Translations under genes and position numbers: made by a program
Notes under the pieces: model-generated
Told to the model about the DNA's origin: nothing
Databases searched by the model: none
The model's input: the letters and a program-made list of their open reading frames with translations, nothing else
Source: Sulfuricurvum kujiense DSM 16994
GTDB lineage: Bacteria > Campylobacterota > Campylobacteria > Campylobacterales > Sulfurimonadaceae
Length of the DNA: 64,000 nt
NCBI RefSeq assembly: GCF_000183725.1
Contig: NC_014762.1
Location: forward strand, 434,001-498,000
Reading direction: 5' to 3'
In this document: positions 3,633 through 48,102 of the stretch, piece after piece
How the letters are laid out: every line of letters begins with the position of its first letter
Position numbering within the stretch: position 1 is the first letter of the stretch

Positions 3633-3672
3633 GCCCTCTTTGCTCAATTTCAAAACTTAAGGAGTGAGAGTT

Positions 3673-6079: not shown

Positions 6080-6081
6080 AG

Positions 6082-6516: not shown

Positions 6517-6525
6517 GAGTTAAAC

Positions 6526-7425
6526 ATGAAAATTCTACTTGTAACTATTTTAGCGGGGTTTTTATCCCTTTTCGGCGGTGATTTGCATCTTTTTAGTGTC
6601 TCAAATGCGGATGGGAAATACAATGCATCCGTTATAGAAAAAGCATTGGAAGCCAACGGCTTTGTCATTTCGGCTAACAGTGAAATGAACGGGCCGTTTA
6701 AAATTCAATTCGGACAAAGTGATTTTTCACAATTCAACCTTTTAACCGCGTATCACAAAGCCCATTCGGAAGCATTAGTGAAAGCAAATCCTGATGCCGG
6801 GATCTTTGTTCCGATGGGATTTGGAATCTACCAACGTAACGGAGACAAAAATCTTCATGTCTCTATTCTAACCGCAAAGTCGATGGAAAAAATCGCCGGG
6901 TTTAAGGCCAAAGAGTTTGCTTTGATCGAAAAAGAGGCGATTGCTACTCTCAAAAAAGCGCTGTCGGGTGCCAAAATAACTCAGAGTGAAACCTCTCTCC
7001 CTGCTGAGGGGAAACTTTTAAGCCGATTTGTCAAAGCAAGCAGCAAAGAGAGTTGGGCAAGCGACAAAGAAGAGACGGAGATGATGATCGAAGACGGCCT
7101 TAAACCGGCAGGATTTGTGATGTCGAATTTTACCGATTACAACTTTGCGCTCGGTCAAAAAAGCCCGTTTGATTTTTACGATACCTATTCTATCTGTAAA
7201 CTCAAAGTAATTTATACGGTAGCCAAGACACGTCCGGAAGCAGCGGCATTTGCCCCGTGTACATTGATGGTATATAAGAAAAAAGATGCCGATGAAATCG
7301 TAATGGGCTTCCCGGGAGTCTATAACTGGATGAGCAGTGCACGTGTCGATAACTTAGAGGCAAAAGAGACGTTACTTCAGGCTCAGAAAGATTTTGAGGG
7401 AGTTTTAAAAAGCGTCATCGAGTAA
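6526..7425 (+). CDS. Periplasmic DUF302-like two-domain protein
   Basis: A 299-residue protein with a Sec signal (MKILLVTILAGFLSLFGG) and two similar halves, each with the pattern of DUF302: an N-terminal helix ('IEKALEANGF', later 'MIEDGLKPAGF'), then an 'LLTAYHKAH' or 'SICKLKVIYTVAK' strand-helix, then 'FVPMGFGIY' or 'FAPCTLMVY'. The biochemical role of DUF302 is unknown to me. It is the last gene of the sox-linked run, 9 bases after the DsrE-like gene and 53 before the next promoter. Two Cys residues occur in the second half only. Confidence 0.65.
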   Translation: MKILLVTILAGFLSLFGGDLHLFSVSNADGKYNASVIEKALEANGFVISANSEMNGPFKIQFGQSDFSQFNLLTAYHKAHSEALVKANPDAGIFVPMGFGIYQRNGDKNLHVSILTAKSMEKIAGFKAKEFALIEKEAIATLKKALSGAKITQSETSLPAEGKLLSRFVKASSKESWASDKEETEMMIEDGLKPAGFVMSNFTDYNFALGQKSPFDFYDTYSICKLKVIYTVAKTRPEAAAFAPCTLMVYKKKDADEIVMGFPGVYNWMSSARVDNLEAKETLLQAQKDFEGVLKSVIE

Positions 7426-7441
7426 TACAGGAGATAAGTGT

Positions 7442-7447
7442 TATAAT
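7442..7447 (+). promoter_or_regulatory. -10 box (TATAAT) before the nrnA-like gene
   Basis: A perfect TATAAT lies 31 bases upstream of the ATG, right after the sox-linked run. No clear -35 box is seen, as is usual for housekeeping promoters in Campylobacterota. It marks a likely transcription restart. Confidence 0.55.
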
Positions 7448-7478
7448 TTCGGCATTTGCAGCAATTAATGAGTCTCTA

Positions 7479-8411
7479 ATGCCTTTATCCCTGATTGATT
7501 CCGCCGACCATATCGTTTTGGTAGCACATAAAAATCCCGATGCCGATTCGCTCGGTGCGGCGTGTGCTTTTTACTCCTATTTACTTCGGAGCCAAAAGAA
7601 AATAACCCTTTTTTGTGCTTCATCCGCAGTCAATCCCAATCTCGCTTTTTTGCCGTGGTTTGAGAAAATAACCGACCGTTTTCCTGACAATGCCGACTGT
7701 ATCATCAGCTTTGACTGCGGAAGCTACGGCCGTCTAGGGATTGAGAAAGAGCTGCCGCTTATCAATATTGACCACCATGCGAGTAACGATTTTTACGGTA
7801 CCCACAATCTTGTTAATACACATGCGATAAGTACCACCGAAGTACTGTACGATTATTTTGTTGCCAACGGTATAAAAATCAATGGTAAAATGGCACTTTC
7901 GCTTTACGCGGGACTGCTCGATGATTCTAAATGTTTTAGCGCTTCCGAATGCAGTGCCAAAACATTTTCGATGGCACACGCTTTGATAGAGCTGGGTGCT
8001 GACCATGCGGTATGTACGGAATGGCTGTATCGTCGAGGTTCGCTTGCTTCATTGCGGGTACGCGGAAGTCTCTTTAAGCAGATGAAACTTGTGCTTGATG
8101 GGCAATTGGCTGTATTTGAAATCCCTTTTGTATTATTGGAAGAGACTGGAGCCAGTGTAGCCGAGTGCAAGAGTGCTATGGATGAAGCACTGGGAATGCG
8201 CAGTGTTAAAGCCGCATTGATGGTTGTCCATTTTCCCGGCAAGGGGATAAAGCTCTCGCTACGAACCAACGGTACCGTAAATGCTGCGGCAATTATGGCG
8301 GAATTCGGCGGAGGCGGGCATGTTAAGCGTGCCGGAACGTATCTAAAACAAGAAAATTATGATGAGCTGATCCAAACGATGATGGTGAAGATAACAAAGG
8401 AGTTGGTGTGA
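7479..8411 (+). CDS. nrnA: DHH/DHHA1 phosphoesterase (NrnA-like nanoRNase/pAp phosphatase)
   Basis: A 310-residue cytoplasmic enzyme that degrades very short RNAs and 3'-phosphoadenosine 5'-phosphate in studied relatives. DHH motifs are visible: HKNPDADSLG near 18, SFDCGSYGRLG near 76, NIDHHAS near 94, LYAGLLDDSK near 142, and a C-terminal DHHA1 motif GGGGHVKRAG near 280. pAp clearance would be useful next to sulfur metabolism, but the gene has its own promoter and belongs with the next operon: its stop overlaps the M23 peptidase start (GTGA). Confidence 0.85.
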   Translation: MPLSLIDSADHIVLVAHKNPDADSLGAACAFYSYLLRSQKKITLFCASSAVNPNLAFLPWFEKITDRFPDNADCIISFDCGSYGRLGIEKELPLINIDHHASNDFYGTHNLVNTHAISTTEVLYDYFVANGIKINGKMALSLYAGLLDDSKCFSASECSAKTFSMAHALIELGADHAVCTEWLYRRGSLASLRVRGSLFKQMKLVLDGQLAVFEIPFVLLEETGASVAECKSAMDEALGMRSVKAALMVVHFPGKGIKLSLRTNGTVNAAAIMAEFGGGGHVKRAGTYLKQENYDELIQTMMVKITKELV

Positions 8412-9778
8412 GAAGAGGCCGAAAGAATTCGGGAATAGTCGGATGGATATTAGTAGCAGCGGTTTTGGCCGCTTTAGGATTTATGGCATTTTCGCCGGTG
8501 TTTGAACGGGATGATCCGAAAGTGACCCTTAGTCAAGAGGGGTATTGGAATTTTCAAGATCCTATTCATGTCAATGTGGAAGATGTAAGCGGATTAAAAT
8601 CTTACAAAGCGACGATTTCAACGCCTCACGACGAGTGGGTCGTTGTGGATGAAAATAATCCGTCGCATGAGATAAAAAAATCATTTGATATCCGTCCGCC
8701 AAAAGGGGTACGCAGAGTAGATTCAAATTCGATTGTTTTAAAAATCGAAGCAACGGATAACAGCTTGTGGGGCCTTTTTATGGGGAACACTTTTAAACAA
8801 GAGTATACCCTTGTGATCGATCAGCGCCGTCCGGTCCTCTCTATCATTGCAAACTCGTATAAAATTCAAAAAGGGGGATCGGCAATTGTCATTTTTAAAG
8901 CGGAAGACGCCAATTTGGAGAGCCTGAAAATTCAAACCAATTTTGGGAAAACGTTTATTGCCCAACCGTTTATGAAAGAGGGATATTACGCTTCACTGGT
9001 TGCATGGCCGGTACAGGAAGCTTCGTTTTCCGCAACGGTCGTAGCACGTGATAAAGCGGGAAATGAAGTGCGAAATGCTATTCCTTTACGCCTCAAAGAC
9101 CATGTTTACCGTGTTTCCAATATCGAACTCAGCGATCAGTTCTTGGACGGTAAAATTGCCGAACTGGCAAACACCTATGAACAGACGGCGGGGGTGGATG
9201 ACCGGTTGGAACAGTTTCGAATTATCAACGAAAAAGTACGTGCCGATAATGAAAAAATTATCCATGGGATTACCTCGAAAGTATCCAAGAACATGATTAC
9301 GGACTTTAATCCCGTACCGTTTTATCCGTTGGTAAACGGCCAAAAAGTAGCCGATTTCGGAGATCACCGTATTTATAGCTATAAAGGGCAGGAAAACGTC
9401 TCTCAAGCCTACCATATGGGATTGGATCTCGCAAGTGTCGCGATGGGGCCGATAACATCGTCCAACGGCGGGAAAGTGGTGTTTTCACAACCTAACGGGA
9501 TTTACGGAAATCTGCCGATCATTGATCACGGATTCGGATTGTATACCCTTTATGGCCACTGTTCGGAAGTTCATGTGCAGGAGGGGGATACCGCCGCAAT
9601 AGCACAAGAAATAGCAAAAACCGGATTAAGCGGTTACGCGATGGGAGATCACCTTCATTTCGGAATTTTGGTTCAGGGGATTGAAGTACGTCCCGAAGAG
9701 TGGATGGACAGCAAGTGGATAGCCGATAACATCACCAGCGTTATCGATAACGCCAAGGCTATTATTAACCAACACTGA
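8408..9778 (+). CDS. M23 family peptidase (LytM domain), membrane-anchored
   Basis: A 456-residue cell-wall endopeptidase-like protein with a GTG start overlapping the previous stop. One N-terminal membrane segment (about residues 11-28) anchors a large periplasmic region with Ig-like repeats. A C-terminal M23 domain carries zinc-ligand motifs HMGLDLA near 336 and HLHFGI near 415, so it is probably catalytically competent. It likely cuts peptidoglycan crosslinks or shapes the cell. The M23-lpxC order matches my recollection of Campylobacter jejuni. Confidence 0.88.
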   Translation: MRRGRKNSGIVGWILVAAVLAALGFMAFSPVFERDDPKVTLSQEGYWNFQDPIHVNVEDVSGLKSYKATISTPHDEWVVVDENNPSHEIKKSFDIRPPKGVRRVDSNSIVLKIEATDNSLWGLFMGNTFKQEYTLVIDQRRPVLSIIANSYKIQKGGSAIVIFKAEDANLESLKIQTNFGKTFIAQPFMKEGYYASLVAWPVQEASFSATVVARDKAGNEVRNAIPLRLKDHVYRVSNIELSDQFLDGKIAELANTYEQTAGVDDRLEQFRIINEKVRADNEKIIHGITSKVSKNMITDFNPVPFYPLVNGQKVADFGDHRIYSYKGQENVSQAYHMGLDLASVAMGPITSSNGGKVVFSQPNGIYGNLPIIDHGFGLYTLYGHCSEVHVQEGDTAAIAQEIAKTGLSGYAMGDHLHFGILVQGIEVRPEEWMDSKWIADNITSVIDNAKAIINQH

Positions 9779-32011: not shown

Positions 32012-32126
32012 GCCCTCTTACCACACCAAGAGCAAGGTCGCGTGCAGAAGTGCACGGGCGAACCGCCAGCGATTTGGTGAGAGGGCGATTTTCTTTTGTT
32101 TCTTTTCTTATGAAAAAGAAAAGAAA
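32012..32126 (+). repeat. Structured three-hairpin repeat, copy A
   Basis: P1 pairs GCCCTCTTACCA (32012-32023) with TGGTGAGAGGGC (32075-32086), 12 pairs with one G-T. Inside it, P2 pairs CGTGCA (32041-32046) with TGCACG (32051-32056) around a GAAG loop. A T-rich linker (GATTTTCTTTTGTT) leads to P3, about 11 pairs (32099-32109 with 32116-32126). The order and loop match copies B and C, while the stem sequences differ. In this orientation P1 plus the T-run could terminate mnmA. Confidence 0.8.
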
Positions 32127-32147
32127 GAGAAGATACAAGGATAAAAT

Positions 32148-33377
32148 ATGACATCCAAAAAGAAAATTGTTGCAGCCGGGATCATCGGCAACGTCATAGA
32201 ATACTACGATTTCGCCCTTATCGGTTTTTTGGCCGTGATGATGGGGAACCTCTTTTTCCCCTCGCATGACCCTTTCCTCTCCTTATTAGGTTCTTTCGGT
32301 GCCTTTGCCGCAGGGATGATTATGCGTCCGGTCGGCGCATTGATTTTCGGACACATCGGTGATCGTGTCAGTCGGCGTACGGCATTGATGAGCTCGCTTT
32401 TGATGATGGCGCTCCCTACCTTTCTTATCGGTTTTTTGCCGACGTATGCGCAAATCGGGATTTTGGCTCCGATCCTTTTGGTATTGCTTCGTATGATCCA
32501 GGGACTCTCCGTCGGAGGAGAATACGCCAGCTCCATCGTCTATTTGGTTGAGCAGTCCGCACCGGATCATCAGAATCTCTACGGCTCGTTTGTCTCCGTC
32601 GGAGCTAAAATCGGAATGGCGTTGGGATCGGGATTTTGCGGGGCCTTGTTGTGGTATATCGGTGGCGATGCGATGGGTGAATGGGGTTGGAGAATACCGT
32701 TTTGGGCGAGTATTATTATTGCGGCAGCGGGGCTTTACCTGCGACGTAATCTAACCGATGATTATAGACCGAGTGAAGACAAAACCGTTCCGATCGTTGC
32801 CATTTTACGCCATCATCGCCGTGAGTTTTGGCAGTTTTTGACCATTGCATCGGCAATATGGGTATTTTACTATACCGTCTTTATTTATCTTCCCATCTGG
32901 CTAGAGGGGAGCGCGGGACTCAGCAAAGCCGAAGCGGGGCAGATTAATACTCTCTCTATTGTTGTCGGTGTAGTATTTATCCCGTTGATGGCTATGGTTG
33001 CGGATGTCATAGGTTCGCTTCGTCTGATGCGCTTAACCTCTATAACCCTCGCGATAAGCGTTTATCCTCTCTTTTATTGGATGAGCATCGGAGGTTTTTG
33101 GGGTGCATTGGCGGGGACGATCGGACTGGTAATTTTGCTTTGTGCGTTTCAGGCTCCCATCTTTGCTTCGACGGTGAATGCCCTGCATTATCACGGCTAT
33201 CGCGCATCGTTTACAGCGGTAATATTAGGGAGTGCCGCAGGGATAGTAGGCGGAATTACACCTGCTCTTATGACATCCATCACAGAGTATAGCGGCAACC
33301 CTTTCGCCCCCTCTTATCTTATTGCGGCCGCTTCGCTGATGGGGGGGTGGGGTATTCTTAGAAATGTACGGGCTTGA
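32148..33377 (+). CDS. MFS transporter, metabolite:H+ symporter (MHS/ProP-like)
   Basis: A 409-residue inner-membrane transporter with about 12 hydrophobic segments. MHS-type signatures are GNVIEYYDFALIGF near 14, FGHIGDRVSRRTAL near 66 and RMIQGLSVGGEYASS near 115. Relatives carry dicarboxylates, osmolytes or amino acids with protons; the substrate cannot be read from sequence. It is shorter at the C-terminus than ProP (500) and lacks its coiled coil. It faces the carbonic anhydrase gene, with which its 3' end overlaps by 20 bases. Confidence 0.85.
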   Translation: MTSKKKIVAAGIIGNVIEYYDFALIGFLAVMMGNLFFPSHDPFLSLLGSFGAFAAGMIMRPVGALIFGHIGDRVSRRTALMSSLLMMALPTFLIGFLPTYAQIGILAPILLVLLRMIQGLSVGGEYASSIVYLVEQSAPDHQNLYGSFVSVGAKIGMALGSGFCGALLWYIGGDAMGEWGWRIPFWASIIIAAAGLYLRRNLTDDYRPSEDKTVPIVAILRHHRREFWQFLTIASAIWVFYYTVFIYLPIWLEGSAGLSKAEAGQINTLSIVVGVVFIPLMAMVADVIGSLRLMRLTSITLAISVYPLFYWMSIGGFWGALAGTIGLVILLCAFQAPIFASTVNALHYHGYRASFTAVILGSAAGIVGGITPALMTSITEYSGNPFAPSYLIAAASLMGGWGILRNVRA

Positions 33378-34119
33378 AGAGCGATTTCATTAAGGGATAG
33401 TCCATCATTTTCCCCGGATTGCTTTCTCCATTGATGTTGACGATTTTGAGGCGTCCGTAGCCGTTATTGAAATCATTGGCCAAATCATAGACAACACCGA
33501 CGATGGTGAGTTTTCCGCTCTCCACATCCCCTTTAAACTCTTTTTGTGCGTAATACACCTGTTGATTGATATTGCTGACAACGGCGGCAAGCCATTTGGC
33601 TTCCTCCGTCCCCATCATTGATGTTTTTCGTACGGCTAGTGAGAGAGAATCGAGCTCTTTGATGATGTGCGGCCCCTCGGAAGAGTAATCGCCCAGAGCC
33701 GCCTTAATCGCTCCGCAGCGCGAATGTCCGACGATGATGAGCAGCGGGGTATTGAGATGGCGTACACCGTATTCGACGCTCCCCATGTTGGAGCTGAACT
33801 GATTGCCGATATTACGGATAATAAAAAGATCATTTTCAGCCGTTGCGTCGAGGGCAGCACTTTGAAAACGGGAATCCGAGCATCCGATGACCGTGGCACG
33901 CGGATGTTGTCCGTTTTTCAGTTTTTCAAAGAAAGCGGAGCCCTGATGATTGACGTAATAGTCGTTTTGGGAGATGACTTCGGCGAACATCTTTTGTGCT
34001 ATTTCCTGCAGCTCTTGGGTATTGGGGGCGGCATGGGCTGAAGAAGCTTCTGCTGAATTGGCCAAAAGCAGCGAACTTGAGGTGAGGGCAAAAAATTTGA
34101 GAAAGGTCCGCTTATCCAT
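33358..34119 (-). CDS. Exported beta-class carbonic anhydrase
   Basis: A 253-residue zinc enzyme interconverting CO2 and bicarbonate. The start is ATG 34119 with AAGGATG upstream; ATG 34128 abuts that site. The zinc ligands Cys80 (GCSDSR), His132 and Cys135 (GHSRCG) and the catalytic Asp82-Arg84 pair are present. The N-terminus (KRTFLKFFALTSSSLLLA) is a Tat-like signal with Lys-Arg in place of Arg-Arg, so export of a folded enzyme to the periplasm is likely. It ends inside the 3' end of the transporter gene on the other strand. Confidence 0.9.
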   Translation of the reverse strand: MDKRTFLKFFALTSSSLLLANSAEASSAHAAPNTQELQEIAQKMFAEVISQNDYYVNHQGSAFFEKLKNGQHPRATVIGCSDSRFQSAALDATAENDLFIIRNIGNQFSSNMGSVEYGVRHLNTPLLIIVGHSRCGAIKAALGDYSSEGPHIIKELDSLSLAVRKTSMMGTEEAKWLAAVVSNINQQVYYAQKEFKGDVESGKLTIVGVVYDLANDFNNGYGRLKIVNINGESNPGKMMDYPLMKSLFKPVHF

Positions 34120-34163
34120 TGTACACATCCTTTATCTCTAGATAAAAGCAGTGTACCACAAAT

Positions 34164-35027
34164 TTAAAACGTTATAGACTCATTTTTTTCGGTACCGTTT
34201 GAAACCGGTACATCGATTTGCTCTTGGGGTGCCGTTTCTTCCGGGGCAGTTTGATCGAAAAGATCGGTGATACTTTGATTATTTTCTACAGCAGGGGATT
34301 CGCTTTCCCTCGGCGGTGTCATGACCTCTTTGAATTGAGGAATGACGATCCCTCTGCGTTTCATAATCTTGTAGATGATACGTGAACGGTTTTTGACGTA
34401 CTTTTGGCTCCCTGTCGGATCGTATTTGATCGGATTGGGCAGGACCGCCGCCAGACGCGCCGCTTCTTGTCCCGTCAGGTTTTTGGCGCTTTTATGGTAA
34501 TAATGGCGTGCCGCCGCTTCGATTCCGAATATACCGTCACCCCATTCAGCGACGTTGAGATAGATTTCCAAAATACGCCGTTTGGAGAGGGCATGTTCGA
34601 TCCGCCAGGTGATGATCGCCTCTTTGATTTTGCGTACCGGATTTTTGCTCGGAGAGAGGTAGAGATTTTTAGAGAGCTGCTGGCTGATGGTGCTTCCTCC
34701 GGCGACGGAGCCTTTTTTGAGACTCCGCTCCAGCGCCTGCTCCATCCCTGTTACGTCAAATCCGTCGTGATTCCAAAACTTGTCGTCTTCTCCGATTAAC
34801 ACCGCTTTGATCACGTTCGGGGAAATTTGTGACATGGAGACCCATTTTTGGGTGATTTCCATGTCCCGGTTTTCATCGGCCCACTCGTTTTGGCGGTATT
34901 CCATAAATGCGGTCGGTATAGGACGGATATCTTTGAGATCATCAATGTTGGGATAGATGAAATAGCGTCCGATGTCGATAGCCCCCGCCAGGAGTAAAAG
35001 GAGAAGGATAGTTTTGAGTTTTTGCAT
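34164..35027 (-). CDS. mtgA: MtgA, monofunctional peptidoglycan transglycosylase
   Basis: A 287-residue GT51 enzyme that polymerises lipid II in the periplasm. One N-terminal membrane segment (about 5-22) is followed by the catalytic region: EDDKFWNHDGFD near 77 with the key Glu, GGSTISQQLSKNLYLSP near 111, and KRRILEIYLNVAEWGDGIFG near 147. The C-terminal 50 residues are a Pro/Glu-rich tail beyond the usual MtgA length. The next gene downstream on this strand is the beta-carbonic anhydrase. Confidence 0.92.
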   Translation of the reverse strand: MQKLKTILLLLLLAGAIDIGRYFIYPNIDDLKDIRPIPTAFMEYRQNEWADENRDMEITQKWVSMSQISPNVIKAVLIGEDDKFWNHDGFDVTGMEQALERSLKKGSVAGGSTISQQLSKNLYLSPSKNPVRKIKEAIITWRIEHALSKRRILEIYLNVAEWGDGIFGIEAAARHYYHKSAKNLTGQEAARLAAVLPNPIKYDPTGSQKYVKNRSRIIYKIMKRRGIVIPQFKEVMTPPRESESPAVENNQSITDLFDQTAPEETAPQEQIDVPVSNGTEKNESITF

Positions 35028-35028
35028 A

Positions 35029-35655
35029 TTAATGATCCGTATTTAGGGTAGGGAGATGCCACCCCTTGATATAGGCGGCGAGCCGCAGTGTGATGGCGAT
35101 AAAGGCTACAATCGCAACGCTCAGTGTCGACAACCCGATCACTGCCGAAAATACAAGGAGCAAAATCGAGACGATCAGTGCGATGGAACCGTAAAAATCG
35201 CTTACGAGTACGGCAGGGACCTGATTGATGAGGATATCACGCAGAACCCCTCCTCCAATTGCGGTGAGGAAGCTTAGGATAATAACACCGAAAAAATTGA
35301 ACCCTGCGTCAATCGCCAAAAGCGCTCCGGTGATACTGAATGCGACAAGACCGATCGTGTCGCTGATGACAAAAAGCCATTGTCGTTCAATCTGTTCCCG
35401 GTGGTAAAGACGAAAGGCGAAAGCGATGGCGATAGTGGTTAAGACGGTAATGGCAGGATAGTATTCGTTAAACGCAAACGGGGTTCGGTCCAAGATGACG
35501 TCACGGACTACTCCTCCGCCCAGTGCGGTAAGCGAAGCGGAGATAATTATGCCGAGGAGATCGAGGTTGCTGCGAACCCCTACAAGAAAACCGCTGAGTG
35601 CAAAGGCGATAATACCGAGAATGTCGGCAAAAACAACGAGATTAAATTCAGACAT
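35029..35655 (-). CDS. TRIC-like cation channel family protein (YicG/UPF0126)
   Basis: A 208-residue membrane protein with about seven segments. I choose ATG 35655, which overlaps the upstream gamma-carbonic anhydrase gene by 8 bases; longer in-frame starts lie inside that gene. The two internal repeats each carry the family motif GGGVxRD (GGGVVRDVI near 50, GGGVLRDIL near 136), as in trimeric intracellular cation channels. Bacterial members conduct K+ in vitro; the role here is unknown. Confidence 0.85.
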   Translation of the reverse strand: MSEFNLVVFADILGIIAFALSGFLVGVRSNLDLLGIIISASLTALGGGVVRDVILDRTPFAFNEYYPAITVLTTIAIAFAFRLYHREQIERQWLFVISDTIGLVAFSITGALLAIDAGFNFFGVIILSFLTAIGGGVLRDILINQVPAVLVSDFYGSIALIVSILLLVFSAVIGLSTLSVAIVAFIAITLRLAAYIKGWHLPTLNTDH

Positions 35656-36184
35656 TGGGTGCGCGGTAGTTTTCTTTAAAACTGACGTAGCGCTTTGCGG
35701 AAGCATACAGCTCGGCAACCTCTTCATCGGTAAGCTCACGAACCACTTTTGCAGGGCTTCCCATGATTAAAGAGCGGGGAGGGAATACTTTGTTTTTAGT
35801 CACCAGCGCTCCCGCGCCGACGATCGATTCTTTCCCGATGACGGCACCGTCCAAGATTGTCGCACTCATTCCGATCAGACACGCATCTTCGATGGTGCAG
35901 CCGTGCAGCATGACGCGATGGCCGACGGTAACATCGTTGCCGATGATGGTAGGGTAACCGTCGCTCATATCGTCGCGCTTGTGATGGGTGACATGTACCA
36001 TACTCAAATCCTGGATATTGCTGCGATCCCCGATCTTAATATAGTGGACGTCTCCGCGAACGACGCATCCGAACCAGATACTGACGTCTTCTCCCATTGA
36101 TACCCGTCCGATGACATCGGCGGAGGGGGCGATCCAGACCCGCTCTTTCATATCCGGAGTATAGTGTAGATAATTAGCGATCAT
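35648..36184 (-). CDS. Gamma-carbonic anhydrase-like hexapeptide protein (YrdA-type)
   Basis: A 178-residue left-handed beta-helix protein. Hexapeptide repeats run from about 20 to 150. The zinc-ligand histidines of the family appear in SMVHVTHHKRD near 63-68 and GHRVMLHGC near 88-94. The family includes true CO2/bicarbonate enzymes and inactive homologues, so activity is not assured. It is 12 bases after ppk1 and overlaps the TRIC-like gene. Confidence 0.85.
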   Translation of the reverse strand: MIANYLHYTPDMKERVWIAPSADVIGRVSMGEDVSIWFGCVVRGDVHYIKIGDRSNIQDLSMVHVTHHKRDDMSDGYPTIIGNDVTVGHRVMLHGCTIEDACLIGMSATILDGAVIGKESIVGAGALVTKNKVFPPRSLIMGSPAKVVRELTDEEVAELYASAKRYVSFKENYRAPNV

Positions 36185-36196
36185 GGAAATCCTTGA

Positions 36197-38296
36197 TTAA
36201 CTCTCTTTGAATAGCCGTGCCGTAAGCTGCTGGACATAATTCGGAGTCTGTTTTTTGACCGAATTATACACTTTGTTGGTATGGGTTTCAGCGATTTTAT
36301 GACTATCGATCAGATTGCCGGGCTCATGTTTCACTTTGACGTAGCTGCCGTCGTTTTGCAGTTCGTATGCGAGAATATTGTCCGATGTCTGAAGCTGTAA
36401 AATTTGAATCAGTTTGTTACTGATCTCTTCTCCTTGAATCGGCGTGAGCAACTCGATGCGTCGCAAAAGATTCCGCGGCATCCAGTCGGCACTCGAGATA
36501 TAGGTTTGCGGCGTTGAGTGTTTGAAATAATAGATACGGGCGTGTTCGAGGTATTTTCCGATGAGCGAGATGACACGAATGTTTTCACTCACACCCGGAA
36601 CCCCAGGACGAAGACAGCAGATTCCGCGAATAATGAGTTCGATTTTTACACCCGCCTGAGAGGCTTTATAGAGCGCTTTGATAATATCTTCATCGACTAG
36701 GGCGTTCATTTTGGCGATAATCACCCCCTCGCTTCCCATACGGGTTTCGTTTTGAATCAAGGAGAGGACTTTCGGTTTGATCTGCGTCGGAGCCATATAG
36801 AGTTCGTGAAGTTTCCCTTTTTTACTAAATCCCGTGAGGAAATGGAAAAAACGGGTCATATCGTGGGTGATCGTATCGTTGCTGGTCATGTAGCTGATAT
36901 CGGTATAGATCGTTGCGGTAGAGGGGTTGTAGTTCCCCGTACCGATGTGGGCGTACTGTTTAAGCTTGCCGTCGACGCGACGGGTAATGAGTGCCGCTTT
37001 GGCATGTACTTTGAACCCGGCAATACCGTAGATAACGTGTGCCCCGGAGTTTTCGAGTGCTTTTGCCCAATGAAGATTGTTCTCTTCGTCAAAGCGTGCC
37101 CGCAGTTCAACCATAACGGTGACCTGTTTGCCCGATTCGGCAGCGTTGATCAGCGATTGCACGATCGGCGATTTGGAACCGGAGCGATAGAGTGTCATAC
37201 GGATGGAGACGACCTCGGGATCTTTGGCCGCAATCTGAATCAAACGTACGACCGGTTCAAAGCTTTCAAACGGATGATAAAGGAGCAAATCTTGTTTATC
37301 CAACGTCGCATAGAGGCTCTCATCGGTGTCAAGCGGCGGAAGATTGCGCGGTTTGAAACTCGGAGTGGTCAAATGGGCAAAATCTTTGTTTCCGACCACC
37401 TGCCATAGGCTTCCGAGGTTGAGATAGGTTTGGAAACGGTAGATGTCATCTTTGTAAACATTGGCATGGCGGTTAAAGAAGTTCAAAAGATCATCATCCG
37501 CGTGGACACTGAGTTCAAGGCGTACCAATTCCCCTTTTTTACGAAGTTTTAGACCCTCTTCAAGAATCTCCATGAAATCGTCCGCTTCCTCTTCTTCGAT
37601 CGCGATATCGGCATTGCGGGTGACGCGGAAAGCGGCGAATTTGATCAGCTCATAGCCCGGGAAAAGGTCTTGGATATGTTCGGCGACGATACTTCCGATC
37701 GGAATATAGATACGATTGTCGATTTCGACGAAGCGGGGAAGGACGCGCGGAATACGGATGAGGCCGTAACGCTCAATCGTCGCATCGTCTTTATCGCGGA
37801 GTTTGACGATTTGCCCGAACCCGAGATTATTGAGGTGGGGAAACGGATGGGTCGCATCGATGGCGATCGGAATAACGACCGGATAGATGTTTTCATGAAA
37901 ATATTTGTCGAGGTATTTGCGCTGCTCGGGAGTGGCCTCTTTGTACGGCTTGAAAAAAATCCCCTCTTTTTCCAGCTCTTTCATAATCCCCTGCAGACAG
38001 TATTCGACCTCTTCTTGCTCTTTATGGAGATATTCGCGGATGCCGCGTAGTTGATGAAGCGGCGTAAATCGGTCCGCTCCGGAGACGTTGACACCGGCGC
38101 TGAAGAGTTTTTTCAATCCTGCGACACGGATCATGTAGAATTCATCCAAATTGGTTCCGTAAATCGCTAAAAATTTAAGCCGCTCAAATAAAGGGAGCGA
38201 TTCATCCTGTGCCTGTCGCAAAACACGGGTATTAAATTGGAGCCATGACAGCTCGCGATTGATATAAAGTGCTGGGTCTTTGTAATTATTTGGCAT
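36197..38296 (-). CDS. ppk1: Ppk1, polyphosphate kinase
   Basis: A 699-residue enzyme that reversibly makes polyphosphate from ATP. Domain order is N-terminal (INRELSWLQFNTRVL), head, and two phospholipase D-like catalytic domains. The autophosphorylated His lies in GFKVHAKAAL near 432, followed by HIGTGNYNP near 452, and a second conserved His lies in the C-terminal ARIYYFKHS region. It leads a minus-strand run with the gamma-carbonic anhydrase and TRIC-like genes. Confidence 0.96.
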   Translation of the reverse strand: MPNNYKDPALYINRELSWLQFNTRVLRQAQDESLPLFERLKFLAIYGTNLDEFYMIRVAGLKKLFSAGVNVSGADRFTPLHQLRGIREYLHKEQEEVEYCLQGIMKELEKEGIFFKPYKEATPEQRKYLDKYFHENIYPVVIPIAIDATHPFPHLNNLGFGQIVKLRDKDDATIERYGLIRIPRVLPRFVEIDNRIYIPIGSIVAEHIQDLFPGYELIKFAAFRVTRNADIAIEEEEADDFMEILEEGLKLRKKGELVRLELSVHADDDLLNFFNRHANVYKDDIYRFQTYLNLGSLWQVVGNKDFAHLTTPSFKPRNLPPLDTDESLYATLDKQDLLLYHPFESFEPVVRLIQIAAKDPEVVSIRMTLYRSGSKSPIVQSLINAAESGKQVTVMVELRARFDEENNLHWAKALENSGAHVIYGIAGFKVHAKAALITRRVDGKLKQYAHIGTGNYNPSTATIYTDISYMTSNDTITHDMTRFFHFLTGFSKKGKLHELYMAPTQIKPKVLSLIQNETRMGSEGVIIAKMNALVDEDIIKALYKASQAGVKIELIIRGICCLRPGVPGVSENIRVISLIGKYLEHARIYYFKHSTPQTYISSADWMPRNLLRRIELLTPIQGEEISNKLIQILQLQTSDNILAYELQNDGSYVKVKHEPGNLIDSHKIAETHTNKVYNSVKKQTPNYVQQLTARLFKES

Positions 38297-38329
38297 GTTT
38301 TCTACTAGTTTTGGTTTTAAGTTAACGGG

Positions 38330-38340
38330 ATTATATTATA
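38330..38340. promoter_or_regulatory. Divergent -10 region for ppk1 and the TPR gene
   Basis: The AT-rich string ATTATATTATA gives TATAAT on the minus strand (38335-38330), 34 bases from the ppk1 start. On the plus strand it gives TATTAT/TATATT about 27-30 bases from the TPR gene start. The two may share or compete for polymerase. No clear -35 boxes. Confidence 0.45.
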
Positions 38341-38365
38341 CTTATCGTTACAAAAAAGGAACTTG

Positions 38366-38953
38366 ATGTCTATATTTCAAATTTTAATGTTTGCGGCGAC
38401 CCTTTTTTTCGCCTATCAGATCTTTCGGCACGTTCAAAACCTGGACGATGCTCAGCCTCACAAAAAGGAATCTAATATCGTCGATACGGCTGTTTTCAGT
38501 GCTTCGGCTTTGGTTGAAGAGGCCGATAACGCTTATCAGCGCGGCGAGTTAGATCGTGCCAGAACCGCTCTTGAAGAGGCATCGCGTATCGAGAGCGAAA
38601 ATCCTGAGATTTTAAATAAACTCGCATTTATCACTGCAAAAACGGGTGATCGGCTTAAAGCGATAGAACTGTATGAACAATCGTTGGAACTCGATGAAAA
38701 CGATGACCTGACCCATAATGCCATCGCTTCGCTTTACCGTGCGGAAAATGCATACGAGCGTGCACAGGACCATTACCTCAAAGCCATTGAAATTGATGAT
38801 ACGTATCCCCAGACGTTTTACAACTACGCCAATCTATTGGTTGATATGGATGAGGTTGAGAAGGCCAGAGGAATGTACAAGCGCGCTCTTGAGCTCCAAA
38901 GCGATTTTCCGGAAGCGCGCGAAGCGCTTCTTTCATTAGGAGCACACGTATGA
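38366..38953 (+). CDS. Membrane-anchored TPR protein
   Basis: A 195-residue protein. The start ATG 38366 has AAAAGGA five bases upstream; TTG 38363 is also in frame. One N-terminal membrane segment (MSIFQILMFAATLFFAYQIF) is followed by at least four TPR units (about 48-190), with the typical A-x3-Y/L spacing (AYQRGELDRARTALEEA, IELYEQSLELDENDDL). It is a protein-protein scaffold of unknown partner. It overlaps the NYN gene by 4 bases. Confidence 0.8.
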   Translation: MSIFQILMFAATLFFAYQIFRHVQNLDDAQPHKKESNIVDTAVFSASALVEEADNAYQRGELDRARTALEEASRIESENPEILNKLAFITAKTGDRLKAIELYEQSLELDENDDLTHNAIASLYRAENAYERAQDHYLKAIEIDDTYPQTFYNYANLLVDMDEVEKARGMYKRALELQSDFPEAREALLSLGAHV

Positions 38954-39690
38954 TTGATGATCAGGCCCGTCTCGCCGTATTAATCGATGCGGACAACTCT
39001 CAGCCCTCCATTATCGCCGGGCTTATGGATGAGATTGCCGCTCACGGCATTGCCAGCGTCAAGCGCATTTACGGCGACTGGACCGATACGAAACTGAAAG
39101 GATGGAAAAATGCCCTTCTCGAACATGGGCTTCATCCGATGCAGCAGTTTGCCTATACGACGGGAAAAAATGCGACCGACAGCGCCATGATCATCGATGC
39201 GATGGATCTGCTCTATACGAAAAACTTTGACGGTTTCTGTATCGTCTCCAGTGACAGCGATTTTACCCGTCTGGCGAGCCGTATCCGCGAATCGGGGATC
39301 AAAGTCTACGGATTCGGGGAGCAAAAAACACCCAAAGCGTTTATCGGCGTGTGCGACAAATTCATTTACACCGAAAACCTTCGCCGAGACGCTAATCATA
39401 AAGAGCCGGTCGGGACAAAAATCAAACCGGACAATAAAGCCCTTTTGGCTTTGGTGCGCAACGCGGTCGAGGATACGACCAATGAAGCGGGATGGTCGTA
39501 TCTGGGCTCCATCGGACAAAATCTTATCAACAAATCCCCCGAGTTCGATCCCCGAAGCTACGGCTTCAAAAAACTCCTTGATTTGATTGAAAGTCTGGGG
39601 GAATTTGAGTTTAAATTTTCCGATCCCCTTTCGGGTTCGCAGGCGGTACATGTCAGGCTGAAACGGCACAAAAGGAGTTATGAGAAATGA
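38950..39690 (+). CDS. NYN-domain nuclease-like protein with OST-HTH/LOTUS domain
   Basis: A 246-residue protein. The N-terminal PIN-like NYN domain (about 8-145) has its acidic residues in place: LIDADN near 11-16, KNATDSAMIIDAMDLL near 78, and SSDSDF near 100. A C-terminal OST-HTH (LOTUS) RNA-binding domain spans about 160-240 (LLALVRNAVEDTTNEAGWSY, GFKKLLDLIES). It probably acts on RNA, but the target is unknown. It overlaps both neighbours by 4 bases. Confidence 0.85.
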   Translation: MIDDQARLAVLIDADNSQPSIIAGLMDEIAAHGIASVKRIYGDWTDTKLKGWKNALLEHGLHPMQQFAYTTGKNATDSAMIIDAMDLLYTKNFDGFCIVSSDSDFTRLASRIRESGIKVYGFGEQKTPKAFIGVCDKFIYTENLRRDANHKEPVGTKIKPDNKALLALVRNAVEDTTNEAGWSYLGSIGQNLINKSPEFDPRSYGFKKLLDLIESLGEFEFKFSDPLSGSQAVHVRLKRHKRSYEK

Positions 39691-40409
39691 CGGTACAGGA
39701 AATTTATACGTATCTTGACGGACTTTCCCCATTCGCGACGCAGGAGGGATGGGATAATTCCGGTCTTTTAGTCGGCGACTTTGCCCAGGAAATTACGCAT
39801 GTTGTCTTGAGTATCGACATTGATGAAGAATTAATCGAAACGATTCCCGAGAATGCCCTTTTGATCACCCATCACCCGGTTATTTTCGGCGGACTTAAAC
39901 AGCTGCAGTTTAATCAGTATCCGGCTAAGATTCTTATGCCCCTGATCCGCAAAAATATCACCAATATCGCGATGCATACCAATTTCGACCAAACGCATTT
40001 GAACGATTACGTCGCGACTGAAGTCCTCGGATATCCCATTATCGCCAAAGAGGGGTTTGTCGCGTATTTGGGGGTGGATGAACCCTACGATGCGTTTGCC
40101 GAAAAAATCAAAACGGCACTGGGGCTTCCCCATACCCGCGGCGTCAAATGTCATGATCATATCCGAACCTGTGCTTTGGTGACCGGATCGGGCGCATCCC
40201 TGATGCGCAATATCGAAGCGGAATGTTTTTTGACGGGCGACATCAAATATCATGATGCAATGGAGGCCAAGGCACTCGGTTTATCAATGATCGACATCGG
40301 ACACTATGAGAGCGAACGCTATTTTGGCGAGGTTTTAGGGGGCTATTTGGAAAAATTAGGATTGAGTGTTATAATTTCACCATCTAAGAACCCCTTCACC
40401 TATCTTTGA
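39687..40409 (+). CDS. Nif3-like dinuclear metal-centre protein
   Basis: A 240-residue member of the Nif3/DUF34 family. Metal-binding motifs are visible: EGWDNSGLLVGD near 21, LITHHPVIFGG near 63, HTNFDQTHLND near 97, and GDIKYHDAMEA with IDIGHYESE near 186-208. Members are toroidal hexamers; some relatives are GTP cyclohydrolase-like, but the function is not settled. flgZ follows, as in Campylobacter from memory. Confidence 0.88.
   Translation: MTVQEIYTYLDGLSPFATQEGWDNSGLLVGDFAQEITHVVLSIDIDEELIETIPENALLITHHPVIFGGLKQLQFNQYPAKILMPLIRKNITNIAMHTNFDQTHLNDYVATEVLGYPIIAKEGFVAYLGVDEPYDAFAEKIKTALGLPHTRGVKCHDHIRTCALVTGSGASLMRNIEAECFLTGDIKYHDAMEAKALGLSMIDIGHYESERYFGEVLGGYLEKLGLSVIISPSKNPFTYL
40370..40375 (+). 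promoter_or_regulatory. -10 box (TATAAT) inside the end of the nif3-like gene
   Basis: TATAAT 74 bases before the flgZ ATG, within the last codons of the preceding gene. It would give flgZ-waaA-rlu an independent promoter. No clear -35 box. Confidence 0.4.
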
Positions 40410-40448
40410 GCTAAAATTAGGTAATCGTGTAACTCCAAAAGGAACCGT

Positions 40449-41171
40449 ATGAACAAACACCTTGAACAATTAATCGAGCTCTCTCATGTTGATAAAGAGA
40501 TCGACGCATTTGAACCGCAAATCGAAGAAGCGAATCTTCAGTATGATGCACTTTTAGCGACTAAAAACAGTATCACAAATGAAATCAATGCTTTGAAACA
40601 AGAGATCAAAGACGAACAGATCAAAAAGCATAAAAATGAGCTTCATTTGGCGGAACTTTCTGCAAAACTTGAAGAGAACAGCAAAAAAAGCAATGAGGTA
40701 AAAACCGAGCGCGAAATGAAATCGCTTCAACTCGAAGAAGAGATTGCAAAAGAGCAAGTGAGCTTTGCGAACGAAGAGATTGAGCGATTGGAAAAATTGA
40801 TCGATCACAAACAAAGTAAAATTGACGAGCTTGAAGCAAAAGCAGCTGAAATCGACGGAACTCTTGCAGGTGTAAAAGCGGATGTCGATGTTAAATTGGC
40901 ACGTATCGATGAAGAACGCAAAGAAGTTTTTGCACGCAAAGAGGCGTTGGTAGGTGCGATGAACCAAAAAGGGTTGTCATTTTACCAAAAAATTCGCCGC
41001 TGGGCTAAAAACACGACTGCCGTTGCGGTACGTAATCAAGCGTGTATGGGATGCTATATGGCGATCAGCGATAAAGTCTACAGTGACGTTATCAAAGGCG
41101 AAGAGATCACCATGTGTCCTCACTGCGGTCGTATTTTATTTTTAGAGCCTTCTGACGCTATCGGTGCGTAA
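40449..41171 (+). CDS. flgZ: FlgZ-type coiled-coil zinc-ribbon protein
   Basis: A 240-residue cytoplasmic protein. A long coiled coil (about 10-180, rich in Glu, Lys and Leu) ends in a four-Cys zinc ribbon (QACMGCYMAIS near 197 and MCPHCGRILF near 222). The H. pylori homologue HP0958 (FlgZ) binds and stabilises sigma-54 RpoN and is needed for motility. The same role is likely here by homology and context. It overlaps waaA by 8 bases. Confidence 0.85.
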   Translation: MNKHLEQLIELSHVDKEIDAFEPQIEEANLQYDALLATKNSITNEINALKQEIKDEQIKKHKNELHLAELSAKLEENSKKSNEVKTEREMKSLQLEEEIAKEQVSFANEEIERLEKLIDHKQSKIDELEAKAAEIDGTLAGVKADVDVKLARIDEERKEVFARKEALVGAMNQKGLSFYQKIRRWAKNTTAVAVRNQACMGCYMAISDKVYSDVIKGEEITMCPHCGRILFLEPSDAIGA

Positions 41172-42327
41172 CGTAGTATTCGACCTGATTTATACACTGG
41201 TTGCGGCGTTTTTTTACGTCGCGGCCCTGCCTCTTTTAATCCTCTTTTCGTTTAAAAAGAAATATCGCGATTCAATTCCGGCACGCTTTTTCGGCATTAA
41301 AAATCCCCCGTTTCAACCTCATGACATTTGGTTTCATGTGTGTTCATTCGGGGAAGCAAAAGCAATCGCTCCAGTTTTGGAGAAATTGAAAGATAAAAAA
41401 ATCGCGATCAGTGTTATTACCCATACGGGATATGAGGCGGCGTCGAAGTATGCGGCTCAGGTACGTTACCTGCCGTATGAGTTATGGCTGTGGTTTTGGA
41501 TCGAGCGTCCCAAAACCGTTGTGGTCCTGGAAGCGGAGTTTTGGTATCTGCTGTTTCGTTTAGCTTCGAGAAGAGGCGCTCGCGTTATTGCACTCAACGC
41601 TCGGATAAGCGATCGAAGTTTCTCGAAGTATTACCGGATGCGATGGTTTTATCGGATTTTATTATCGCAATGCGATCGTGTCTTTTGCCAAAGCAGCGAG
41701 GATATGGTCCGTTTTATCGCACTGGGTGCCAGGAATGTCGAAGTCGTCGGAAATATCAAGCTTGCTCAAAAAATCGAGTCGAATAAACACTATCCGAAGC
41801 CTAATGGATTGCTTATCGTTGCCGCAAGTACCCATGAGGGGGAAGAGGAGGGGATAATTCGGGGATTTATGGCATATCGTGAGCATAACCCCTCCGCCAA
41901 ACTTTTGGTGGTTCCGCGTCACCCCGAGCGGTTTGCCAAAGTAGGAGAGTTGATTGCGAAAACGGCACCGAAGATGACTCTTTCACGTTGGAGTGAATCG
42001 CAAATGATTACGGAGGATATTACCCTTATCGATACGATGGGAGACTTGAATAATCTCTACGCCATAAGTGATGTAGTGGTGTTGGGGGGTGCTTACGCTC
42101 CTATCGGGGGGCATAATCCGCTGGAACCTGCGACATTCGGATGTAGGATCATTTCGGGGATGGAGATATTTCACCAGAGGGAACTGTTTAAATATGTCTC
42201 TCACGTGCAGTTTACGTCAGTGGAGGGGATTGCGGAAGCATTGAAAAATGCTGAAACGATGCCCCCGTCACAGATTAACGGAAGCGTTGATCTGAAAAAA
42301 GTACTCAATTATTTAACGGAGAAATAA
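41164..42327 (+). CDS. waaA: WaaA (KdtA), Kdo transferase
   Basis: A 387-residue inner-membrane glycosyltransferase that adds Kdo to lipid A precursor. It uses a GTG start that overlaps flgZ. An N-terminal membrane segment (about 8-26) is followed by WFHVCSFGEAKA near 53, the EAEFWYLLFR region near 121 and the sugar-nucleotide site LGGAYAPIGGHNPLEPA near 304. It works downstream of LpxC, encoded at 9828. Confidence 0.94.
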   Translation: MRNVVFDLIYTLVAAFFYVAALPLLILFSFKKKYRDSIPARFFGIKNPPFQPHDIWFHVCSFGEAKAIAPVLEKLKDKKIAISVITHTGYEAASKYAAQVRYLPYELWLWFWIERPKTVVVLEAEFWYLLFRLASRRGARVIALNARISDRSFSKYYRMRWFYRILLSQCDRVFCQSSEDMVRFIALGARNVEVVGNIKLAQKIESNKHYPKPNGLLIVAASTHEGEEEGIIRGFMAYREHNPSAKLLVVPRHPERFAKVGELIAKTAPKMTLSRWSESQMITEDITLIDTMGDLNNLYAISDVVVLGGAYAPIGGHNPLEPATFGCRIISGMEIFHQRELFKYVSHVQFTSVEGIAEALKNAETMPPSQINGSVDLKKVLNYLTEK

Positions 42328-42328
42328 A

Positions 42329-43066
42329 ATGGAAAAACCAAAAGCGTATAAGCTCCTGGCGGAGCAAGAGGGGATATCCAACTCTGAGGCCAAATCACTG
42401 ATCGACCGCGGTTTGGTTTATGTCGGAAACAGCAAGGTGATGATCGCGCGGGGCGAGATCAGCCCCAAAACGGTGTTTATCGTCCAGAAAGTGGAAAAAG
42501 TACGTCCGATCTTTGAAAACGACGATTTGATCGTTGTCGATAAACCGGCATTTGTCAACTCCGATGAGATCGAGCGGCAGTTCAAAGGCTCGCAGCTTCT
42601 CCATCGCCTGGACCGTGAAACGAGCGGGGTATTGATGCTGGTAAAAAACGAAGAGTTTCGTCTAAAAGCGATTCAAGAATTTAAAAAAGACAATGTCTAT
42701 AAAGAGTACGTTGCATGGGTAGAGGGGTTGGTGAGTGAGCCGTTTGTGGTAGACCAGCCGCTCATTACTGAGAAAAAAGGGAATAAAGCCTATACCAAGG
42801 TTGCCAAAAAAGGCAAACCCGCCATTACCGAAGTAACCCCTTTGGAAGTTTCGGGTAAAAAGACCAAAGTACAGCTCATTATCCATCACGGCCGTACCCA
42901 TCAAATCCGTGCCCACATGAAATTTGCCCAGCACCCGATTATCGGGGATGAGAGCTACGGCGGACGGCAGTCGAAGCGGGTGATGCTTCATGCGAAAAAG
43001 GTGACGTTGCTCGGGCAGACTTTTGAAGCGCCGGAACCGAAAGTTTTCGGACATTTCGGGAGTTAA
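42329..43066 (+). CDS. RluA-family RNA pseudouridine synthase
   Basis: A 245-residue enzyme with an S4-like N-terminal domain (about 1-55) and a pseudouridine synthase domain. The catalytic motif HRLDRETSGVLM near 90-101 contains the Asp nucleophile, and HHGRTHQIRAHM near 190 supports the RluA/RluD type. The exact rRNA or tRNA target cannot be assigned. It sits between waaA and ffh, with a 336-bp non-coding gap after it. Confidence 0.88.
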   Translation: MEKPKAYKLLAEQEGISNSEAKSLIDRGLVYVGNSKVMIARGEISPKTVFIVQKVEKVRPIFENDDLIVVDKPAFVNSDEIERQFKGSQLLHRLDRETSGVLMLVKNEEFRLKAIQEFKKDNVYKEYVAWVEGLVSEPFVVDQPLITEKKGNKAYTKVAKKGKPAITEVTPLEVSGKKTKVQLIIHHGRTHQIRAHMKFAQHPIIGDESYGGRQSKRVMLHAKKVTLLGQTFEAPEPKVFGHFGS

Positions 43067-43077
43067 TGTTTTTTGTC

Positions 43078-43189
43078 CTTTTCTTTTTAGAAAAGAAAAG
43101 AACGAAAAGAAAAGCGCCGCTCAAACAGAACGCTACCAGCCGTTTTGGCACTACTGCCAACGGCTGGGCTCTAGGTGTGTTTTCGCGGC
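43078..43189 (-). repeat. Structured three-hairpin repeat, copy B (inverted)
   Basis: Read on the plus strand: P3 is CTTTTCTTTT (43078-43087) with AAAAGAAAAG (43091-43100), then an A-rich linker. P1 is GCCGC (43116-43120) with GCGGC (43185-43189), plus AAACA (43123-43127) with TGTTT (43178-43182). P2 is CCAGCCGTT (43136-43144) with AACGGCTGG (43159-43167), capped by GGCA-CTAC-TGCC. On the minus strand the cap loop is GTAG. Confidence 0.82.
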
Positions 43190-43205
43190 ATTATTTATAA
43201 AATTC

Positions 43206-43315
43206 CCGTGATCCAATACAAAGAGCCGTTCCGAAGGCAGTAGTGCCGAGAGGAACGAGCGCCTTTGGATCACGGTATGCTCTTTTGCTACTTTTCTGGC
43301 TAAACAGAAAAGTAG
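43206..43315 (+). repeat. Structured three-hairpin repeat, copy C
   Basis: P1 pairs CCGTGATCCAA (43206-43216) with TTGGATCACGG (43265-43275), 11 perfect pairs. P2 pairs CGTTCC (43227-43232) with GGAACG (43252-43257) and is capped by GGCA-GTAG-TGCC. The linker GCTCTTTTGCTA leads to P3, CTACTTTTCTG (43288-43298) with CAGAAAAGTAG (43305-43315), 11 perfect pairs. The order is the same as copies A and B, with different stem bases. Confidence 0.85.
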
Positions 43316-43352
43316 TAGACGATAATAAAGTCTAAATCAAGAAAAAATTAAG

Positions 43353-47534: not shown

Positions 47535-47825
47535 TTAGGCTTCGAGTTTGATTTTACCTACTGCGTAATTATGGACTAAGGCTTGGATTAGGTTTTGATA
47601 TCCGATCCCCATCTCTTTGGACTTGGCTTTAATAACCGCTAAATCGCTGACGGAGAAGCGGATAGTAGTTTGTCGTTTTTCCTGCAAAGATTTGGTGTAT
47701 TTCGCATTGTTTTGATACGCTTGGCGCTCTTGCGGCGAGAGGGGATTGCTGACCCACTCTCCGTTTTCTATTTCGTTTAGAAGCTCATTTTCCTCTTGGT
47801 CGAGGTAGATCGGTTCATTTTTCAT
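47535..47825 (-). CDS. BrnA-like ribbon-helix-helix antitoxin
   Basis: A 96-residue protein. The start ATG 47825 has GGAGG eight bases upstream; a longer in-frame start at 47849 lies within the toxin gene. The C-terminal half has a ribbon-helix-helix pattern ([19 protein letters not shown], then [16 protein letters not shown]), as in BrnA or CopG-type antitoxins. It overlaps the upstream toxin-like gene by 11 bases, so the toxin gene is first. It probably binds the palindrome at 48146. Confidence 0.78.
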
Positions 47826-48102
47826 TTTTTGTGCCTCCGTAAGCAGCATTCAGTTTTCGGCTGGGAATAATCGATTTTAAAAATATTTCCTCTTCTGTTT
47901 CGACAAAAGGGACATACCAGATATATTCATCAATTTCGATGACGAAAATCTGTTGGTTAGGATACTTTTCCGTATTAGGATGGATATATCGTTCGATGAT
48001 CTCATCTTTCTCGATCTTCTCCAATACCTGTTCAAAACTGATATTTCGTTGGAGTTGGAGGAGTTGGTTTTTCTCTTCATTCCAACGAATAATTTTGGAC
48101 AT
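47815..48102 (-). CDS. BrnT-like toxin
   Basis: A 95-residue protein. The N-terminal pattern WNEEKNQLLQLQRNISFEQV matches the W-x-E-x-K...SFE-x-V opening of BrnT-family RelE-like ribonucleases, and the C-terminal LKSIIPSRKLN matches their final basic strand. A DUF4258-type relative is possible. The order, toxin then antitoxin, is that of brnTA. It is read from a near-consensus promoter at 48127. Confidence 0.68.
   Translation of the reverse strand: MSKIIRWNEEKNQLLQLQRNISFEQVLEKIEKDEIIERYIHPNTEKYPNQQIFVIEIDEYIWYVPFVETEEEIFLKSIIPSRKLNAAYGGTKNEK

Follow-up and report, generated by a model that had tools for sequence, protein, structure and literature searches.

Among described bacterial repeats, those closest to the element reported here are the repetitive extragenic palindromic (REP) sequences tagged by GTAG or CGTC, together with the bacterial interspersed mosaic elements (BIMEs) and REPINs. 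In the parts of Di Nocera et al. (2013, PMC3733652) that deal with them, REPs are palindromes of 20-40 bp forming one helix, and REP-type dimers are mostly intergenic, between co-directional or convergent genes, with a predominance of head-to-head pairs; no mobilising enzyme is known there for the CGTC-type families. We report that a stretch of 64,000 nucleotides from Sulfuricurvum kujiense DSM 16994 (NC_014762.1, positions 434,001 to 498,000; hereafter "the window", whose numbering we use) carries three copies of a real structured repeat family, which comes and goes between related species and is undescribed in the sources searched. The family is probably a non-autonomous, dispersed intergenic mobile repeat of the BIME/REPIN type, built on a module of ~110 nt that folds as a single strand and is larger than REPs.

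The likeness to the tagged repeats covered in that part of PMC3733652 is extensive: both are dispersed and intergenic, both form heterodimers, head-to-head dimers prevail in both, with conserved spacers, and both are flanked by co-directional or convergent genes. The present module differs by its size and its three helices, by a conserved internal-loop motif and by the lack of a GTAG or CGTC tag at the foot of its outer stem (P1) in Sulfuricurvum, where the P1 feet read, by eye, AATT followed by CCCGTGATCC or AAT followed by GCCCTC; where GTAG does occur, it forms a cap loop or, in some stems of the tail hairpin (P3), belongs to the paired bases of the foot. Copies from two other groups, g6 and g43, have by eye a partly paired CGTC on the opposite strand of the P1 foot, so that a distant link to CGTC repeats is conceivable. 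Other systems share some of these features. The TIRYT-associated terminal inverted repeats (TIRs), as far as the same part of PMC3733652 describes them, are likewise longer, partly self-complementary and single, dimeric or grouped, and its authors link them to tyrosine transposase genes. The BRE repeat of Bordetella, in the section of PMC3110155 that presents it, is a ~90-bp, mostly intergenic repeat of other proteobacteria that is thought to be mobile; it is set apart by description rather than by sequence, being about 69% G+C, arranged in tandem (variable-number tandem repeats) and betaproteobacterial. Bacterial miniature inverted-repeat transposable elements (MITEs), as outlined in part of PMC10969869, are also short and non-coding, with inverted ends and presence or absence at given sites.

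Fold and distribution of the module

An initial annotation, made from the letters of the window, had described three copies with one layout. Sequence and folds agree with it for the positions, the P1 arms, the G(A/T)AG cap and P3; the linker of the third copy needs correction, as it reads TATGCTCTTTTG and not TTTTCTTTTG. In the common fold, the P1 stem is followed by a 10-nt 5' internal loop ending with AGAGC and by a hairpin, P2, with a four-base G(A/T)AG cap; on the 3' side come AGCG and 3 nt, then the P1 arm that closes the stem, a linker rich in pyrimidines and the P3 tail hairpin. The clearest sequence signature, absent from the initial annotation, is the 5' internal loop with its terminal AGAGC and, opposite to it, an AGCG separated by 3 nt from the 3' P1 arm. 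Against dinucleotide shuffles, the fold z-scores are -7.8, -5.9 and -9.3 for copies 1, 2 and 3, and none of the 200 shuffles of each copy folds equally well.

Copy 1 (32012..32128, plus strand; 105.9 bits, E 1.2e-20 with R1, a covariance model built from 21 copies) is a single copy of subfamily B lying between an mnmA-like gene and an MFS transporter gene, with a predicted fold of -56.4 kcal/mol. Its P1 5' arm GCCCTCTTACCA (32012..32023) pairs with the 3' arm TGGTGAGAGGGC (32075..32086); these enclose the 5' internal loop with its final AGAGC (32024..32033), which is conserved in alignment A3, the P2 hairpin (32034..32067, GAAG cap at 32047-32050) and the conserved AGCG motif (32068..32071), and the P3 tail hairpin, an inverted repeat (I7), follows at 32092..32133, all on the plus strand. 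Copies 2 and 3 form a single head-to-head pair with 15 nt between their model matches, so the three elements of the initial annotation are all present at two sites rather than three. This 245-bp dimer (43073..43317), between rluA-like and ffh genes, consists of copy 2 (43073..43189, minus strand, subfamily C; 98.3 bits, E 5e-19; inverted repeat I6; P1 arms at 43178-43189 and 43116-43127, P3 at about 43070-43108), an AT-rich spacer between the two heads (ATTATTTATAAAATT, 43190..43204) and copy 3 (43205..43317, plus strand, subfamily A; 124.4 bits, E 1.4e-24; inverted repeats I24 and I3; P1 pairing 43206-43216 with 43265-43275, GTAG cap at 43240-43243, P3 tail after 43276).

That the family has further members, elsewhere in this genome and among related Campylobacterota, was borne out. 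A sequence search with copy 3 gave 13 long matches in the S. kujiense genome, copy 3 included, and R1 retrieved 38 copies at E<=0.001 plus a 39th at 0.0011, every one of them located on the main contig; the 38 matches span 87-120 nt (most of them 113-118), with three helices, and the copies occupy 26 sites, counted by hand as 13 pairs and 13 singles. R1 matches were found in 35 of the 41 genomes of the genus, own genome included, and in 17 of 298 genomes of the order, from the best 12 candidates of each; R2, a model rebuilt from alignment A4, matched 33 of 397 genomes of the phylum, several by a tail only, from the best 9 candidates of each, copy numbers in these two scans being at least those found. 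Outside the genus, the full core occurs in g6, which belongs to the same taxonomic family, and in g43; the single copy inspected in g56 has a similar nested fold, the copies inspected in f9 consist of the tail and little or nothing else, and the case of g90 is doubtful. Between genera, P1 and P2 differ; what is kept is the tail and, with variants, the core motif RARAGC ... AGCG(A/T)TT. Tail-only hairpins of f9 genomes were seen in L112, L113 and L124, and also in L110, L114, L144 and L147; by eye, those of the first three loci stand just upstream of what we take to be a cysD gene.

The family had been presented as unrecognised, in keeping with the absence of any Rfam match at gathering score in the whole window and in L126, a locus holding g6 copies. 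Five weak Rfam matches on the copy 1 stretch (Phe_leader, two microRNAs, sn2524 and Flavo-1; E 0.04-0.92) fall below curated scores and were discarded, and literature searches, limited to one library, listed no account of this repeat family. Plasmid carriage was considered and rejected: plasmid records gave only partial matches to copy 1 (24 records, 32-37% covered among the matches listed, E 0.03 and above) and one partial match to a g6 copy. The tail pattern was found nowhere in one scan of viral contigs and in 2 stretches, coreless by eye, in another; a search with a wider layout gave no plasmid match and 7 phage records with tail-only matches. Separately, 14 viral-contig stretches (L243-L256) carry TTTTGGTTACTTTT...AAAAGTAAC, some with a strong variable hairpin just before it, a count made without chance control; this layout resembles that of the module, and wider proteobacterial kin are possible.

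Covariation, dimer units and placement

The stems differ between copies and stay paired, as the initial annotation had observed on three of them. In A4 (108 distinct copies, aligned with the covariance model and biased towards structure), the share of paired cells is 95.2%, where shuffles give 73.8% and slid controls 40-54%; double changes affect 553 cells (183 in shuffles), a double change is found in 19 of 26 base pairs (shuffles reach 15) and there are 59 extra pair types versus 53.8 in shuffles, a number that 11 of 500 shuffles reached. Subfamily A alone has double changes in P1, P2 and P3; one P1 pair, for example, is GC in 58 and AT in 9 of its 73 copies. Whole P2 helices also differ on both arms at once, as in L217 (6139-6424) and L037, and these differences and the many double changes could have their source in hairpin-templated mutation or in exchange between copies. 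The compensation is there; that it implies selection, as had been claimed, is less secure, since these two processes might also produce it. It should be remembered that covariation in repeated bacterial hairpins does not, alone, prove a functional RNA.

A parsimony count gave 117 double Watson-Crick changes versus 189 single-side ones, the latter made of 65 changes to G-U, 38 to A-C and 86 to other mismatches. The excess of G-U over A-C is modest (p=0.01), and two cruder counts of distinct states are not significant (24:15, p=0.20; 32:19, p=0.09). Helices for these counts came from RNA folding of consensus sequences; the cruder counts dropped clusters of fewer than 4 copies, parsimony set ambiguous ancestors to Watson-Crick pairs and alignment A5 omitted 9 loci (L228-L236), 11 own loci judged to be site repeats and matches above E 1e-8. 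As changes to G-U exceed those to A-C, one strand would fold alone, hinting at RNA or single-stranded DNA (ssDNA) without separating them. Of the two forms first proposed, RNA or a DNA cruciform, a symmetric cruciform is thus mildly disfavoured.

As in BIMEs and REPINs, inverted pairs recur: every pair of genus units closer than 90 nt is head-to-head (29/29). Among these 29 Sulfuricurvum dimers, 21 measure 243-252 bp, with an AT-rich spacer of 15-23 nt; the other 8 measure 277-286 bp, with a longer spacer that typically contains a ATTTTCGC..GCGAAAAT hairpin. Dimer ends read ATGTACTTTTCT / AGAAAAGTACAT or near variants, inverted terminal repeats such as MITEs have. The g6 units, in which two modules are by eye tail-to-tail, measure 308-314 bp at 10 of 18 sites, with ends forming AGCTTCG..CGAAGC palindromes, and 212 and 250 bp at 2 others; one boundary is lacking at the remaining 6. 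A further repeat (GAAATGTGGGGTGAGGGAAGG or near) is joined to one end of several units in a mosaic pattern (L031, L067, L201, L217, L074; right of the unit).

Placement was studied on 103 genus units, with copies picked by score and genes called by a simple open reading frame (ORF) rule, and with multiple counting of orthologous sites; 7 units lack one or both flanks and 7 overlap an ORF call. Flanking genes are convergent for 51 of 96 units, co-directional for 45 and divergent for none, and the 22 units of the own genome alone repeat this picture (11, 11 and 0). By comparison, the 66 gene junctions of the window include 7 convergent and 7 divergent ones (Fisher p 1.6e-8 and 0.0015, respectively, versus the units). 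The elements do lie just after genes, as noted for the window: of 199 unit edges, 153 have the 3' end of a gene next to them, the median distance being 7 nt. Single units between co-directional genes are sense in 17 cases and antisense in 19. By eye, the neighbours are ordinary chromosomal genes, a point that bears on any comparison with integron attC sites, which fold as single strands and lie, with their R/L boxes, beside cassettes where an integrase is present. In the S. kujiense genome, 21 of the 26 sites fall in the half around dnaA (C4:382; p=0.0025); a second full-strength DnaA-domain gene besides dnaA was seen at G000:C4:1738049-1738525.

Presence and absence at orthologous sites

Both sites of the window can be compared with those of related species, the orthologous loci that carry a name being mostly from Sulfuricurvum (KdtA identity up to 88%). 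At the rluA|ffh site, 17 of the 18 loci with both genes have no R1 match; the remaining one, L091, retains a pair in degraded form, the left copy of which resembles a different subfamily. L101, one of the 17, has unrelated genes at this place; its junction (3407-4143) holds what looks by eye like a toxin-antitoxin pair and a CGTC-type repeat. The mnmA|MFS site has no R1 match in any of the 7 loci where the two genes are adjacent, and the aligned genes are 2-8 bp apart. The 3' end of thiG was compared in loci from 30 of the 39 genomes with this gene: an R2 match lies within about 250 nt in 19 of them, and the 15 loci viewed show differing subfamilies, orientations and single or dimer states. 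These 15 loci also include L289, where a remnant is missing the greater part of the core, L299, with a hairpin of the tail alone, and L290 and L297, which carry other repeats. Around prfA, a match is found somewhere in the locus for 8 of 30 loci.

Mobility and competing explanations

In the mobile repeat that we favour, the module would fold as a single strand, with P1 enclosing the conserved internal loop and P2, followed by the P3 tail; in Sulfuricurvum, modules that pair typically do so head-to-head, as heterodimers of ~245 or ~280 bp in which the two P3 tails form the inverted ends (ATGTACTTTTCT...AGAAAAGTACAT-like). By analogy with the TnpA-REP hypothesis, as set out in part of PMC6006769, the folded strand may be recognised by an enzyme supplied in trans. 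Units would insert, or survive, only where promoters stay joined to their genes, i.e., right after stop codons, and stems would drift without losing their pairing, since recognition demands that the shape persist, with help from exchange between copies. A side effect on transcript ends is likely, as a prediction. What the data establish is the repeat family, its structure and covariation, its presence or absence at orthologous sites, its placement and the dimer rule; mobility itself, the ssDNA form and the enzyme follow by inference.

Several results weigh against this mobile repeat, beginning with the enzyme. Three RAYT-like Y1_Tnp genes are clustered in the S. kujiense genome (L021, G000:C4:2118000-2134000, at 5972-9725), amid GGTGCCTGACACC / GGGGTCAGACCCC palindromes, which are a separate palindromic repeat family; none of the three is near a copy, so the linked RAYT/TnpA-REP gene of BIMEs and REPINs is missing here, and, unlike the case of the TIRYT-associated TIRs, these Y1 genes are not flanked by elements of the family. 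By hand count, 19 of the 22 genus genomes without a Y1_Tnp match still carry copies, and copy number does not follow the gene (means of 6.1 in 19 genomes with it and 5.9 in 22 without), which rules out a co-resident RAYT as dedicated mobiliser while leaving room for a distant enzyme. Among 31 Y1 loci scanned, some overlapping, one (L168) has an element, with an ORF between. The RVT_1 profile, which covers this reverse transcriptase family only, has no match in the own genome (9 of the 41 genus genomes have one), and a retro-mobilised repeat similar to short interspersed nuclear elements was rejected on this ground. No Y1 transposase or reverse transcriptase of the families searched accounts for the repeat. 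A search for an autonomous parent element found none, L217 and L126 holding ordinary-looking genes between copies; this lack of a parent transposon sets the family apart from MITEs. A second difference may be that visual inspection of the window sites and of the dimer flanks, whose boundaries are uncertain, revealed no target-site duplication. Some sites, moreover, are common to several species (thiG; rluA|ffh in L091); such sharing would equally suit an ancient inheritance followed by losses, and it means that placement units are not fully independent. Lastly, the G-U excess could mean an RNA function.

A bidirectional transcription-end element is a somewhat unlikely alternative, in which the core hairpin and a U-rich stretch (GATTTTCTTTTG) would terminate transcription in the sense of each module, a pair between convergent genes would stop both and selection would keep the stems. 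The position right after stop codons, the preference for convergent genes, the U-rich stretch G(A/C)TTTTCTTTT(G/C) in 46 of 59 copies outside subfamily A and the predominance of changes to G-U over A-C all agree with it. Subfamily A, however, has TATGNTCTTTTG at that place in 66 of 73 copies, a weaker U-run, and a terminator consensus scan, blind to nested hairpins, gave one site within the elements (minus strand, 43132-43118) versus 0.5 in shuffles; a second site lies inside mnmA. This explanation, like the plain independent terminators that the initial annotation had set against its own proposal, is weakened by the lack of orientation bias among co-directional singles and by the fact that most relatives have no unit at the corresponding junctions. 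These two observations also count against a structured RNA acting in trans or in cis (a small RNA or a 3' untranslated region RNA), with a protein-binding internal loop and spread by ordinary duplication, and so does the absence of a sigma-70 consensus promoter at the window sites in a scan for that promoter type only; an unpaired motif conserved across genera while stems vary and the 65 changes to G-U versus 38 to A-C speak for such an RNA, but the distinct-state counts alone are not significant, and we regard it as very unlikely. Compensation might even require no selection, if hairpin-templated mutation (template switching), together with exchange between copies, maintained the pairing of the palindromes around a functionless fold. 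Entire P2 helices changed on both arms together and the proportion of double to single-side changes would suit this explanation, to which we give hardly any credence, as it leaves the conserved unpaired motif, the constant loop lengths and the G-U excess unexplained.

REP-like repeats are common; within one genus, the present family combines numerous copies with empty sites for comparison, a dimer rule that is strict and helices that covary, and with these four features one can test whether RNA or ssDNA is the folded form and which enzyme acts on it. It is unlikely, though worth stating, that Campylobacterota possess here a separate class of structured mobile repeats, which may have kin among proteobacteria and whose enzyme would read the conserved internal loop on a single folded strand, be it RNA or ssDNA, and tolerate almost any stem sequence; if true, such a loop-reading enzyme, leaving the stem sequence free, would be a new recognition logic for mobile DNA.

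Elsewhere in the window, two small minus-strand genes at 47535-48102 look, by eye, like a BrnT/CopG-type toxin-antitoxin pair.

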